From assembly GCA_031279825.1 (NCBI GenBank), contig JAITHT010000080.1, positions 1-35,704 on the forward strand: a stretch of 35,704 bases of DNA. The letters run 5' to 3'. Below the pieces are notes generated by a model. That model saw nothing but the letters and a program-made list of their open reading frames with translations. It was not told where the DNA came from and ran no database searches. Position numbers and translations under genes: made by a program. This document shows, one piece after another, positions 6,993 through 35,211 of the stretch; the stretch's first letter is position 1, and the number at the start of each line of letters is the position of its first letter. This DNA comes from Desulfovibrio sp. Its GTDB lineage: Bacteria; Desulfobacterota; Desulfovibrionia; Desulfovibrionales; Desulfovibrionaceae.

Positions 6993-7063
6993 GTTTTTTT
7001 ATTGATGTTGTTGGAGGGCAATTCTGCTTGCCGAAACAAAGGCGCGGGGCGATAGTCTTTTTG

Positions 7064-7116
7064 CTACAAGTGATTTCATAAATGGGCCAATAGCCCATTT
7101 ATGAAATCACTTGTAG
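7064..7116. repeat. Perfect 24-bp-arm palindrome related to family B ends
   Basis: Positions 7064-7087 and 7093-7116 are exact reverse complements separated by CAATA. The outer part (CTACAAGTGATTTCATA) is the same sequence that ends the family B elements near 22733 and, with changes, near 28276. It lies in the 570-nt divergent gap between the atp and arn operons. There is no T-tract, so it is not a typical terminator; it looks like a solo repeat end. Confidence 0.85.
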
Positions 7117-7359
7117 CGTATTTTGATGTTGCAACGCTTCACAGCGCGCATGCGTAGTTATGCGCTGTATCTCCCGAAAGGCGCAGGCGGAACACGTTTC
7201 GCCGTTAAACGCCGGAGGGAGCGAAATGCTTCAGGGAGGCGCTCTGAGGGATTCGGGAAGCGTGCGGGCCGGCGTACGGGGGCTGGCGGAAAAGCCTGAG
7301 GTGGAGTATAGGAGTGACGGCGCATCGCCGACCACCTTCAACATTTACGGAAAATCGTC
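7117..7359 (+). other. Leader region of the arn operon
   Basis: I see no convincing gene here. There is a bulged hairpin at 7141-7169 (ACAGCG paired with CGCTGT). A short open frame from the ATG at 7226 has an excellent GGAGGGAGCG site, whereas arnB itself has only a weak site. That frame runs out of frame into arnB and its codon choice does not look like a gene. Confidence 0.4.
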
Positions 7360-20381: not shown

Positions 20382-20771
20382 AGGGTCTCCTGAATACCGA
20401 ATGAGGCTCTCATGGAGATGAGGGCAAAGGAATACTATAGCCTGAGTATCCCTGTTAAGGCAATATAACTAAGGGAGATTTTTTCCCTCACGAGGCATTG
20501 CTTTTCTTGAAACGCACGTCGCTGGTATGCCGTAATCCGGCAAGTGGGGAGGAAACGAAATTAAAGATATCCGCCGGCAGATGCGGTTTTTGAGCGTATG
20601 AGAGCATTTTCAAAGTGAAAATGCTCTGGTAACCGGCAGCGTAAGCGCTGACTTGCGCGCACGAGGAGTAAGCGAAAATTCTTTTCGCCGTTAACGACGA
20701 GAGCAGCGTTTCAAAGTAATCTGCTTCGGCATGTGCAGCACGGCCCTGTTGATCGCAGGCAGAGGGGGATT
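20382..20771. other. ccmE-ccmF gap: no gene, contains a family A element
   Basis: A 106-codon minus-strand frame spans this gap but it is built from the family A repeat and lacks protein-like features. The full-length repeat lies at 20601-20726. I see no other feature. Confidence 0.6.
20601..20726 (+). repeat. Family A element, full length (126 bp)
   Basis: It begins with the palindromic head AGAGCATTTTCA/TGAAAATGCTCT, continues with the shared core (CCGGCAGCGTAAGCG, CGAGGAGTAAGCGAAA, TTTTCGCCG) and ends with TTTCAAAGTAATCTGCTT. The two ends form terminal inverted repeats. It has no coding capacity. Confidence 0.85.
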
Positions 20772-22577: not shown

Positions 22578-22733
22578 AGAAGTCATTTCATAATTCACTA
22601 TGAACTGACTTCTAACGTCGGACGAAAGTCCGGCGCGCCGCCACAAGCGGCGTGAGCAAGCCGAAAACCGCGTTTTTCGGCGAAGCAATCCTCATACATA
22701 GGCCATTGGGCTATGTATGAAATCACTTGTAGT
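22578..22733 (+). repeat. Family B hairpin-chain element B1
   Basis: Five successive hairpins. The head is AGAAGTCATTTCATA paired with its near complement (22578-22613, 14 of 15). The second is GGAC-GAAA-GTCC with a GNRA loop (about 22620-22631). Next come CGCCGC/GCGGCG (about 22636-22652), GCCGAAAA/TTTTCGGC (about 22660-22681), and TCATACATAG/CTATGTATGA (22692-22720). The outer ends AGAAGTCATTTCATA and CAAGTGATTTCATA (complement) are similar, like terminal inverted repeats. Its core is almost identical to element B2 at 28158-28276. It ends about 90 nt before gmhB. Confidence 0.85.
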
Positions 22734-28157: not shown

Positions 28158-28276
28158 TAGCCGGACGAAAGTCCGGCGCGCCGCCACAAGCGGCGTGAGC
28201 AAGCCGAAAACCGCGTTTTTCGGCGAAGCGATCCTCATAAACAGGCCATTGGCCTATTTATGAAATTACTTTGTAG
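28158..28276 (+). repeat. Family B hairpin-chain element B2
   Basis: The core (from CCGGAC-GAAA-GTCCGG through CGCCGC/GCGGCG to GCCGAAAA/TTTTCGGC) is nearly base-for-base identical to B1 at 22617-22690. The tail hairpin CATAAACAGGCC/GGCCTATTTATG (28236-28262) has the same layout but compensating differences from the B1 tail. The head hairpin of B1 is missing here. It ends about 45 nt before the recO start. Confidence 0.85.
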
Positions 28277-29069: not shown

Positions 29070-29072
29070 ATT

Positions 29073-29200
29073 AGAGCATTTTCACTTTGAAAATGCTCTG
29101 GCAACCGGCAGCGTAAGCGTCGGCTCTCGTGCGCGAGGAGTAGGCGAAACGTGTTTTCGCCGAGGGCGACGGGGGCAACGTTTCAAAGTTAATTTGCTCT
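29073..29200 (+). repeat. Family A element, full length (128 bp)
   Basis: Left end AGAGCATTTTCACTTTGAAA; right end, read as its complement, AGAGCAAATTAACTTTGAAA. These 20-base terminal inverted repeats match at 16 of 20 positions. The left end also folds on itself (TGAAAATGCTCT). The core includes CCGGCAGCGTAAGCG and a GGCGAAA/TTTTCGCC hairpin. It starts 4 nt after the recO stop. Confidence 0.9.
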
Positions 29201-30260: not shown

Positions 30261-30383
30261 AAGCCGGATGGGTCCGCGTGGACCGCGTACGCTGTCTTTC
30301 ATCAATGTGTTTGAAGTAATTCACGAATGCAACAGGGTGGCCCGTTTCGTAACGGATTTACCTGCGTAATCCTAGTGCCTAAT

Positions 30384-30689
30384 TGCAAAAATTCAAACTA
30401 TATTTTTTGCGGAATTTTTGCAGGATCGTCGGCTGAAAAGCATGGTTTCCAGCCGACTTACACCGCCTTCGGCGGCGTAAAACCCTCCAGGGTTTTATAG
30501 TGTTTACTTTTGCAAGTAAACACTAGTCTGGTGTCTCAGAAATTTGCTTACAAATTTCTGAGACGATCGCAAGCCGAAAAACGTGATTTTCGGCTTGCTC
30601 CCGCCGCCCGCGGCGGCGCGCCGGGCAATACGGCCCGACGGCTAGTGTCCTGATTTGTAATGTGAATTTATGACTCAGCACACTAGCCG
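30384..30689 (-). repeat. Family B element B3: chain of ten consecutive hairpins
   Basis: Ten stem-loops stand one after another in about 306 bp. In + coordinates the arms are: 30384-30394/30412-30422 (TGCAAAAATTC), 30428-30435/30450-30457 (GTCGGCTG), 30463-30467/30471-30475 (CCGCC), 30479-30486/30489-30496 (AAAACCCT), 30498-30509/30514-30525 (TAGTGTTTACTT), 30533-30546/30551-30564 (GTCTCAGAAATTTG), 30569-30580/30587-30598 (GCAAGCCGAAAA), 30602-30608/30612-30618 (CGCCGCC), 30622-30626/30633-30637 (CGGGC) and 30639-30648/30680-30689 (CGGCTAGTGT). Read on the minus strand, the last four correspond in order to the core of B1 and B2, so this is an inverted, expanded family B member. Confidence 0.85.
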
Positions 30690-30728: not shown

Positions 30729-30859
30729 CCGGAGCGGATTCCCTTTGAAACGCCGCACTCGTTGTTGACGGCGAAAACAAGTTTCGCTCACTCCTCGTGC
30801 GTGAAAGCGGCGCTTACGCCGCCGGTCGGCAGAGTATTTTCAAGGTGAAAATGCTCCGG
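30729..30859 (-). repeat. Family A element, full length, inverted
   Basis: On the minus strand it reads from CCGGAGCATTTTCACC through the shared core (CGGCGGCGTAAGCGCC, CGAGGAGTGAGCGAAA, TTTTCGCCG) to TTTCAAAGGGAATCCGCTCC. The ends are matching GGAGC...GCTCC versions of the family A terminal repeats. It ends about 40 nt before the glyS start, and naive extension of glyS upstream translates part of it. Confidence 0.87.
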
Positions 30860-30898
30860 CATCGGGGCGCGAAATGCTACAAATTGAGGAATATCTTT

Positions 30899-35016: not shown

Positions 35017-35084
35017 ACTCCCCATGCGGGGTTTGAGGCACAGCTCCACAAACGAGTACAGCAGCATTTCAGCGTTGATCCGCC

Positions 35085-35211
35085 AGAGCATTTTCACTTT
35101 GAAAATGCTCTGGCAACCGGCAGCGTAAGCGCCGGTTGTATGCACGAGGAGTAGGCGAAATCTGTTTTCGCCGAGGGCGACGAGTGCAACGTTTCAAAGT
35201 TAATCTGCTTT
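35085..35211 (+). repeat. Family A element, full length (127 bp)
   Basis: Left end AGAGCATTTTCACTTTGAAA and right end TTTCAAAGTTAATCTGCTTT, with the shared core in between (CCGGCAGCGTAAGCGCCGG, CGAGGAGTAGGCGAAA, TTTTCGCCGAGGGCGACG). It is very close to the copy at 29073-29200. It ends 17 nt before the next small gene, so it may supply or block its expression signals. Confidence 0.9.

Follow-up and report, generated by a model that had tools for sequence, protein, structure and literature searches.

The question that this locus raises is why glyQ and glyS, two genes of one enzyme, should be separated by an unbroken series of hairpins. The stretch of Desulfovibrio sp. DNA that we analysed, here called the window, is 35,704 nucleotides long, and within it ten hairpins lie back to back at positions 30384-30689. 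An earlier note, made by inspection of the letters, had described ten consecutive hairpins at this place, and folding bears this out: the predicted RNA fold has an energy of -148.4 kcal/mol (z -12.7), and the DNA fold a z of -13.1, with 0 of 100 shuffles as low in either case. The two genes are indeed normally adjacent, as that note had assumed, at least in the genus. We found glyQ in 12 of the 15 genus genomes, this one included; in 10 of the 11 other genomes both genes are in the locus (in the eleventh the contig ends), and there the gap is 49, 11, 3, 34, 90, 12, 12, 12, 9 and 9 bp, as compared to 638 bp here. The short gaps in the 10 congeners indicate that the insertions are derived in this lineage.

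The series divides into element A (30375-30523) and element B (30526-30683), each with five hairpins and each with the same core. Its left boundary, given before as 30384, was about 10 bp off, since the first element begins at the CTAG at 30372. Four of the hairpins had also been said to match, in inverse order, the core of shorter elements elsewhere in the window, with the other six being extra. The inverse match is there, with 52 nt being 88% complementary to 22630-22681 and 28173-28224, but the core is not limited to the second half of the series, as it is present in both A and B. When 30384-30689 was used as a query against its own genome, at least 29 further sites matched query positions 1-143 (the A part) and at least 10 matched positions 140-304 (the B part), one of these 10 being cut by a contig end; with 40 of 109 candidates scored, these copy counts are lower bounds. 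With the window counted, this makes at least 30 copies of A and at least 11 of B, and among the listed places it is the window alone that has A and B together. Both are short (149 and 158 bp), gene-less and multi-copy, and in these respects they are MITE-like and classify as MITEs. The earlier note had held that single-copy status would argue against a mobile family; the copies are in fact dispersed. Its proposal of a modular mobile palindromic element is supported by the dispersed copies, the TA/CTAG flanks, the empty sites and an IS630 relic with matching ends, while the notion of a single element has to give way to two. No Rfam 15 family reached its gathering score in the window (0 matches), and a search of a plasmid collection gave no match.

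Contigs often break in or beside the elements (contigs C15, C59 and C60 of genome G000, and many contigs of G004, G014 and G017; G, C and L numbers are our handles for genomes, contigs and loci), and the copy numbers in these assemblies are for this reason probably underestimates. The features of the window are collected in Table 1. Each element follows one plan, with a left end and hairpin 1, the conserved core, hairpin 4, and at the right end a hairpin in which two copies of the end face inward.

Table 1. Positions in the window of elements A and B, their parts, and related repeats.
Feature	Position	Strand	Basis
TA (in CTAG 30372-30375), left end of A	30373..30374	.	TA on both sides in 17/23 A copies
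Element A, 149 bp, five hairpins, ends GTGYCTAATTGCAAAAAT... and ...AAGTAAACAC	30375..30523	+	copies, fold, flanks
A hairpin 1 (TGCAAAAATTC...GAATTTTTGCA)	30384..30422	+	fold
A core: GATC + hairpin 2 (GTCGGCTGAAAA/TTTCCAGCCGAC) + hairpin 3 (CCGCCTTCGGCGG)	30424..30479	+	core alignment, covariation
A hairpin 4 (AAAACCC tccaGGGTTTT)	30479..30496	+	fold
A right-end hairpin TAGTGTTTACTTTTGCAAGTAAACACTA, two inward-facing end copies	30498..30525	+	fold, copy alignment
TA common to A and B (CTAG 30523-30526)	30524..30525	.	flank comparison
Element B, 158 bp, five hairpins	30526..30683	+	copies, fold, flanks
B hairpin 1 (GTCTCAGAAATTTG...CAAATTTCTGAGAC)	30533..30564	+	fold
B core: GATC + hairpin 2 (GCAAGCCGAAAA/TTTTCGGCTTGC) + hairpin 3 (CGCCGCCCGCGGCGGCG)	30565..30620	+	core alignment, covariation
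B hairpin 4 (CCGGGC...GGCCCG region)	30621..30638	+	fold
B right-end hairpin CTAGTGTCCTGA...CTCAGCACACTAG	30642..30686	+	fold
TA at right end of B	30684..30685	.	flank comparison
Element C copy with same core as A and B	22579..22729	-	own-genome search
C copy, truncated, same core	28158..28276	-	own-genome search
Element D, third small repeat in glyQ-glyS spacer, TAGAGCATTTTCACTTTGAA-type ends	30733..30860	-	sequence comparison
Solitary 55-bp palindrome, two C end copies, TA-flanked, arms 25 bp, 100% complementary	7063..7117	.	

In an alignment of its copies, A stops sharply at CTAGTGTCTAATTGCAAAAA and AAGTAAACACTAG. Both ends start with TAGTGT(Y)..., forming terminal repeats that are short and imperfect, and that in B extend over only about 6 bp by eye. 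Counted outside the motif used for locating the ends, TA borders 17 of 23 A copies and 10 of 16 C copies at both ends; of the 11 B copies 2 stop at a contig end, and 6 of the other 9, whose flanks can both be read, have TA at both ends. It is missing or altered in 6/23 A, 3/9 B and 6/16 C copies. The flanks read CTA...TAG in 14 of the 23 A copies and 6 of the 9 B copies with both flanks, though in C only in 4 of 16. CTAG is a rare word in the window, where it occurs 13 times in 35.7 kb; four of these are at the ends of A and B, and one borders the truncated C copy. IS630 elements insert at TA and duplicate it, according to an excerpt of PMC2170065 in which a preference for CTAG appears only in the title of a cited paper. 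We suggest that A and B would have been inserted at TA/CTAG targets in the glyQ-glyS spacer, with one using the CTAG end of the other: they share the TA at 30524-30525, which points to one having been inserted into the end of the other. Further abutting pairs are A and an insertion sequence with A-like ends, IS-A (L017), A and C (L150), and a lone B hairpin and A (L206).

We also performed an empty-site test, where the flanks of 46 copies and of the window's A+B were joined with one TA kept, and searched against the fetched loci only. For four of the 47 joins, all of them from A or C and none from B, an independent match to the rebuilt site was found. For an A within D (L015) the restored site was matched over 98 nt (90%), and for an A beside D (L027) over 46 nt (87%); for an A between C and D (L150) the join matches a C-D junction without A, that of L147, at 92% over 141 nt, and for a C beside an A end, also in L150, the match extends over 96 nt (84%). 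Removal of A together with one TA thus restores known sequence at three nested sites. The remaining joins, that of the window's A+B included, found nothing among the fetched loci, or only themselves or weak matches.

As candidate movers, the genome has 8 DDE_3 (IS630-type) matches, six of them above cut-off; IS-A holds one of the other two. IS-A (L049, also L186) is a degraded insertion sequence of 827 bp whose ends, TAGTGTCTAATTGCAAAAAT and TAGTGTTTAGTTGCAGAAAT, are near-identical to the two ends of A; its pieces match HTH_29 (31.4 bits, above cut-off) and the last part of DDE_3 (21.1 bits, below the cut-off of 28.6). Only A was found to have its ends in common with an insertion sequence of the IS630 family in its own genome, and by this resemblance A would be counted as IS630-mobilised. 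For B's right end, none of 12 places contained an insertion sequence with that end, a scan of the eight DDE_3 loci for TAGTGT/inverted repeats gave none that matches B's left end or the ends of C, and in the genome we saw no insertion sequence that is intact and has the ends of A, B or C. Another insertion sequence (L043) has ends of about 18 bp, GTGTTGCGTCC..., similar to the GTGTCGCGTCC ends on core-bearing elements of other genera. IS630 (Tc1/mariner-like) transposases would, as we picture it, move the elements in trans by cutting at their TA-flanked ends. Three core-rich genomes, G122, G086 and G134 (at least 16, 11 and 11 core copies), have no DDE_3 match, which suggests that the elements there are fossils or were moved by another transposase.

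The core that A, B and C have in common is 56 nt long, and consists of GATC, hairpin 2 (AAAA-NNNNNN-TTTT) and hairpin 3. For the model alignment, we chose 36 sequences by hand (copies of A, B and C and copies from congeners and from named MAGs) out of two listings of cores, one of 69 rows and one of 54 distinct cores, with most repeats, several indel copies and the MAG S139 left out. In this alignment 89.3% of the cells pair, 11 of the 19 pairs change on both sides, and the covariation score is 0.237 vs. 0.123 after shuffling (0/500 as high); shifting the partner by 1-3 columns lowers the score to 0.10 or less. Of 348 genomes in the order, 60 have the core according to a covariance model with at most 16 candidates scored per genome; they fall into 23 of 59 genera, and all 60 belong to the Desulfovibrionaceae. 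Twenty-two copies outside the model, in an alignment that was fitted to it, score 0.283 vs. 0.124 (0/500 shuffles); for the same copies the measure 'further pair types' is weaker (30/500 shuffles), and a structure predicted from this alignment without input has the same two hairpins. Absence of paired changes between copies, which had been named as an argument against a structured family, is thus not what we observe. Compensatory changes can, however, also come from palindrome-correcting mutation without selection.

While the core is kept, the ends change. Compared in pairs, 18 representatives are 79% identical in the core (58% after shuffling), as against 59% in the left 60 nt and 59% in the right 80 nt (57% shuffled for each), a contrast that is partly built in, as the core was the search target and its identity relative to the flanks is inflated. 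The flanks are nonetheless parts of the same elements, and their hairpins mostly persist without sequence conservation, with z <= -3 on the right side in 17 of 21 (controls 0/21) and z <= -2 on the left in 11 of 21 (controls 1/18); in G169 and G285 no flank hairpins were found. At least seven types of end can be told apart by eye on core-bearing elements (TAGTGTCTAATTGC, TAGTGTCCTGA, TAGAAGTCATTTCATA, TAGTGTCGCGTCC, TAGTAC..., TACTGATAT... and TAGAGCATTTTCA), and in a single congener, G006, the 11 of 20 fetched stretches with a recognised core represent at least three end types. One copy in this congener, L239 (G006:C58:32350-32950), is, as judged by sequence comparison, a chimera joined in or beside the core. 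Its left part compares at 0.80 with L250 and 0.65 with L252, both of end type X, and at 0.60-0.63 with five A copies (L247 0.60); its right part compares at 0.88 with the A copies L247 and L238 and at 0.60-0.75 with three others, and at 0.65 and 0.57 with X. Based on this one chimera, recombination through the common core is a probable way in which ends were exchanged. Terminal hairpins are also found on their own, with the 43-bp right-end hairpin of B type being solitary at L203 and L206 and a palindrome of C ends at 7063-7117 in the window, and this suggests a second route, in which insertion of solitary end hairpins may exchange ends. Such exchange would let an element follow whichever IS630 transposase is at hand.

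Taken together, we consider it very probable that the series belongs to a superfamily of hairpin-chain MITEs that are modular in build and mobilised by IS630, keep their core and can exchange their ends, and that A and B are two adjacent insertions.

Two further repeats of the window bear on the extent of this superfamily. C has about 24 copies in the genome, the window's two included, with 40 of 76 candidates scored. D is a repeat of about 128 bp, with window copies at 30733-30860, 20598-20717, 29070-29198 and 35082-35209, and its ends resemble those of a 997-bp IS630 in congener G006 (L258, 20-bp ends TAGAGCATTTTAACTTTGAA). In G140 (L275, L276) D-like ends flank a hairpin-2/3 core, so that D may be a diverged member of the hairpin-chain superfamily. 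The palindrome at 7063-7117 is the smallest solitary form seen.

Outside the family, we searched an even draw of 395 genomes of the phylum, of which 11 match, 7 of them from the same family and 4 from outside it; the outside scores (39-45 bits) overlap those of weaker own-family copies in the same draw (37-52 bits). Two further families of the phylum account for the outside matches, of which at least one follows the full plan. G434 has a multi-copy element that by eye follows the same plan, with TACCAA ends, hairpin 1, GATC, hairpins 2-4 and a right-end double hairpin; its hairpin 2 contains AAAAACGTGGTTTT but has a wholly different stem, and G462 is alike. G489 has C-type ends, and G580 the first half only (by eye). 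An exact 22-mer scan gave 92 stretches, of which 40 are from a gammaproteobacterial MAG, S139 (JALTLT; L056, L060, L064, L067 and 36 others). The S139 element is about 151 bp long and present in dozens of copies, with ends GGAA...CTCTGA, a right end of two end copies and, by eye, five hairpins in the same order, hairpin 2 being the same. In 15 of 26 full copies, also read by eye, the two 4-bp flanks are identical. Its core scores 31.5-34.5 bits (11 copies from 10 of the 40 loci), little above isolated 22-mer matches in Allomuricauda, Rhodobacteraceae and Clostridiales (27-29 bits); the best own-family copies listed score 63-84 bits and others down to 37, with one Desulfovibrio locus at 28.6. 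With such scores we treat the S139 element as a candidate rather than an accepted member of the superfamily, and likewise the elements of Enterobacteriaceae RIT693 and Cedecea colo that contain the 22-mer (33-38 bits). A lone S139 end hairpin is present in L112 at 5551. The RIT693 and Cedecea colo repeats are intergenic (L057, L058, L088, L108, L109, L116 and L124), and at several of these loci copies of a neighbouring hairpin stand on both sides by eye, like a duplication on insertion.

Why the core should be retained can be explained in more than one way. We favour the explanation that the hairpin structure itself is under selection, in the form of cruciform DNA or of RNA, either because it makes for a harmless insert or because it aids movement. 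It is possible, though on balance doubtful, that the hairpins are functionless, with all copies descending from one old element and template-switch repair of palindromes keeping the stems paired. Single A copies with inverted loops (GAA for TTC in hairpin 3 of L011, and an inverted hairpin-4 loop in L023) are as expected of template switching, and suggest that it does occur; it would pair stems without selection, and the persistence of flank stems without sequence conservation fits as well. What this leaves unexplained is that GATC and AAAA-6nt-TTTT are nearly fixed across genera while the ends and other stems diverge. A more speculative thought, and in our estimate a rather unlikely one, is that the core itself, a structure-dependent module of GATC, the AAAA-6nt-TTTT hairpin and a GC hairpin, is the replicating unit of selection, outliving transposases by changing its ends, with a host protein or RNA processing reading its structure. 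In Desulfovibrionaceae and related families the core would then be carried by many ends of IS630 type, and perhaps the gammaproteobacterial carrier, with an unrelated transposase type and 4-bp target duplications, would be one more vehicle.

The placement of the elements bears on whether the host makes use of them. In a set of 56 elements, a home-made gene caller called both flanks of 44 and one flank of 9, with 3 unscored. None of the 53 scored lies inside a called gene; the 44 divide into 12 in tandem with the same orientation, 16 in tandem with the opposite one, 9 between divergent and 7 between convergent genes. C alone leans towards the opposite orientation (10 opposite, 3 same), and A, B and C together have no clear orientation preference, which argues against a directional role of a transcript. 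In the spacer we found 3 terminator-like matches (shuffled mean 1.4, sd 1.2), one of them within A (30477-30498), and no promoter in a scan where 0.6 would be expected. The host might keep such elements as transcription insulators or mRNA stabilisers, and the absence from called genes, the stability of the hairpins and the terminator-like match in A would all be in line with this; with only 7 of 44 placements convergent, no clear overall orientation bias and a number of terminator-like matches not far above the shuffled mean, we nonetheless regard it as improbable. A role as terminators is likewise unsupported, given the few convergent placements and the near-shuffled number of matches.

Structured noncoding RNA had been the earlier note's other suggestion. 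Given the strong paired changes the elements might act as such an RNA, whereas the lack of a clear overall orientation preference counts against a transcript-specific role. In the form of a cis-acting RNA (an attenuator, a leader or a processing site) by which glyS would be regulated with respect to glyQ, this explanation could draw on the very stable RNA fold, the paired changes in the core and the position between two genes of one enzyme. We consider it very improbable, however, and disfavour a glyS-specific regulator, because the same elements are found in many other intergenic places and in both orientations, and are absent from the spacer of 10 congeners, and because no Rfam family matches the window. 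In these bacteria, a chain of hairpins between co-transcribed genes is thus not necessarily a regulator. Spread as REP/BIME-type palindromes by a RAYT (Y1) transposase, which the palindrome mosaics and two Y1_Tnp matches in the genome might bring to mind, is hardly credible, as Y1 transposases are not known to make a target duplication, the TA duplication, the TA/CTAG ends and the ends common with an IS630-type insertion sequence all fit IS630, and the two Y1 loci (L050, L051) have no exact TAGTGT.

We thus return to IS630-mobilised hairpin-chain MITEs, and to how they compare with what has been described. The usual pattern in MITEs is that the ends, being bound by the transposase, are conserved, whereas the interior drifts. 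Here it is the reverse, with the inside conserved across many genera and the ends drifting or swapped, which is unusual for such elements. The superfamily therefore provides a large natural data set, complete with compensatory mutations, for asking what the interior of a MITE does and how non-autonomous elements change their transposase. Such elements are undescribed for Desulfovibrio or Desulfovibrionaceae in the titles and abstract openings of the best-ranked open-access matches (in some cases the top 8-20 of up to 51), a set in which subscription papers are mostly absent.

Several known families of small repeats share part of these properties. Correia/NEMIS elements are flanked by TA and have a stem formed mainly by their two ends rather than a chain; REP/BIME palindromes are not known to make a target duplication; and Geobacter uraniireducens, the host of the Chunjie MITE, was once placed in the same class. 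The comparisons that follow refer to the excerpts of the cited sources. Correia/NEMIS of Neisseria are alike in being small mobile repeats with stem-loop transcripts, one form having an internal IHF site, and differ in their sequences, with an exchange of ends not described in that excerpt (PMC2229807). REP/BIME and REPIN palindromes are likewise small, extragenic and found as mosaics, but are tied to RAYT (Y1) and to GTAG/CGTC tags (PMC3733652). Chunjie resembles our elements by its insertion inside an operon; it differs in being 178-235 bp long with conserved ends of its own, and the excerpt mentions no shared core (PMC10969869). TIMEs are also non-autonomous miniature elements, and generate mosaic transposons; they are, however, derived from Tn3, with no hairpin-chain core mentioned in the part available (PMC4133298).

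The two nearest relatives in kind are both from the pneumococcus. BOX is made of structured modules in variable composition, and forms clusters with, and inserts into, other repeats; its modules are boxA, boxB and boxC and its ends have been compared with ISSpn2, whereas here there is a fixed five-hairpin chain with IS630-type ends (excerpt of PMC3049150). RUP of Streptococcus pneumoniae is, in the excerpts of PMC2229807 and PMC3049150, small and gene-less, with a TA target and IS630 ends; it is intergenic, inserts into other mobile elements, and is a MITE mobilised by IS630-Spn1. Functional DNA motifs are not reported for RUP in the former excerpt. Unlike RUP, the elements described here have a conserved core that is common to elements with different ends and is found in 23 genera. 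RUP is thus the closest working model for the hairpin-chain elements, and BOX the closest modular one.
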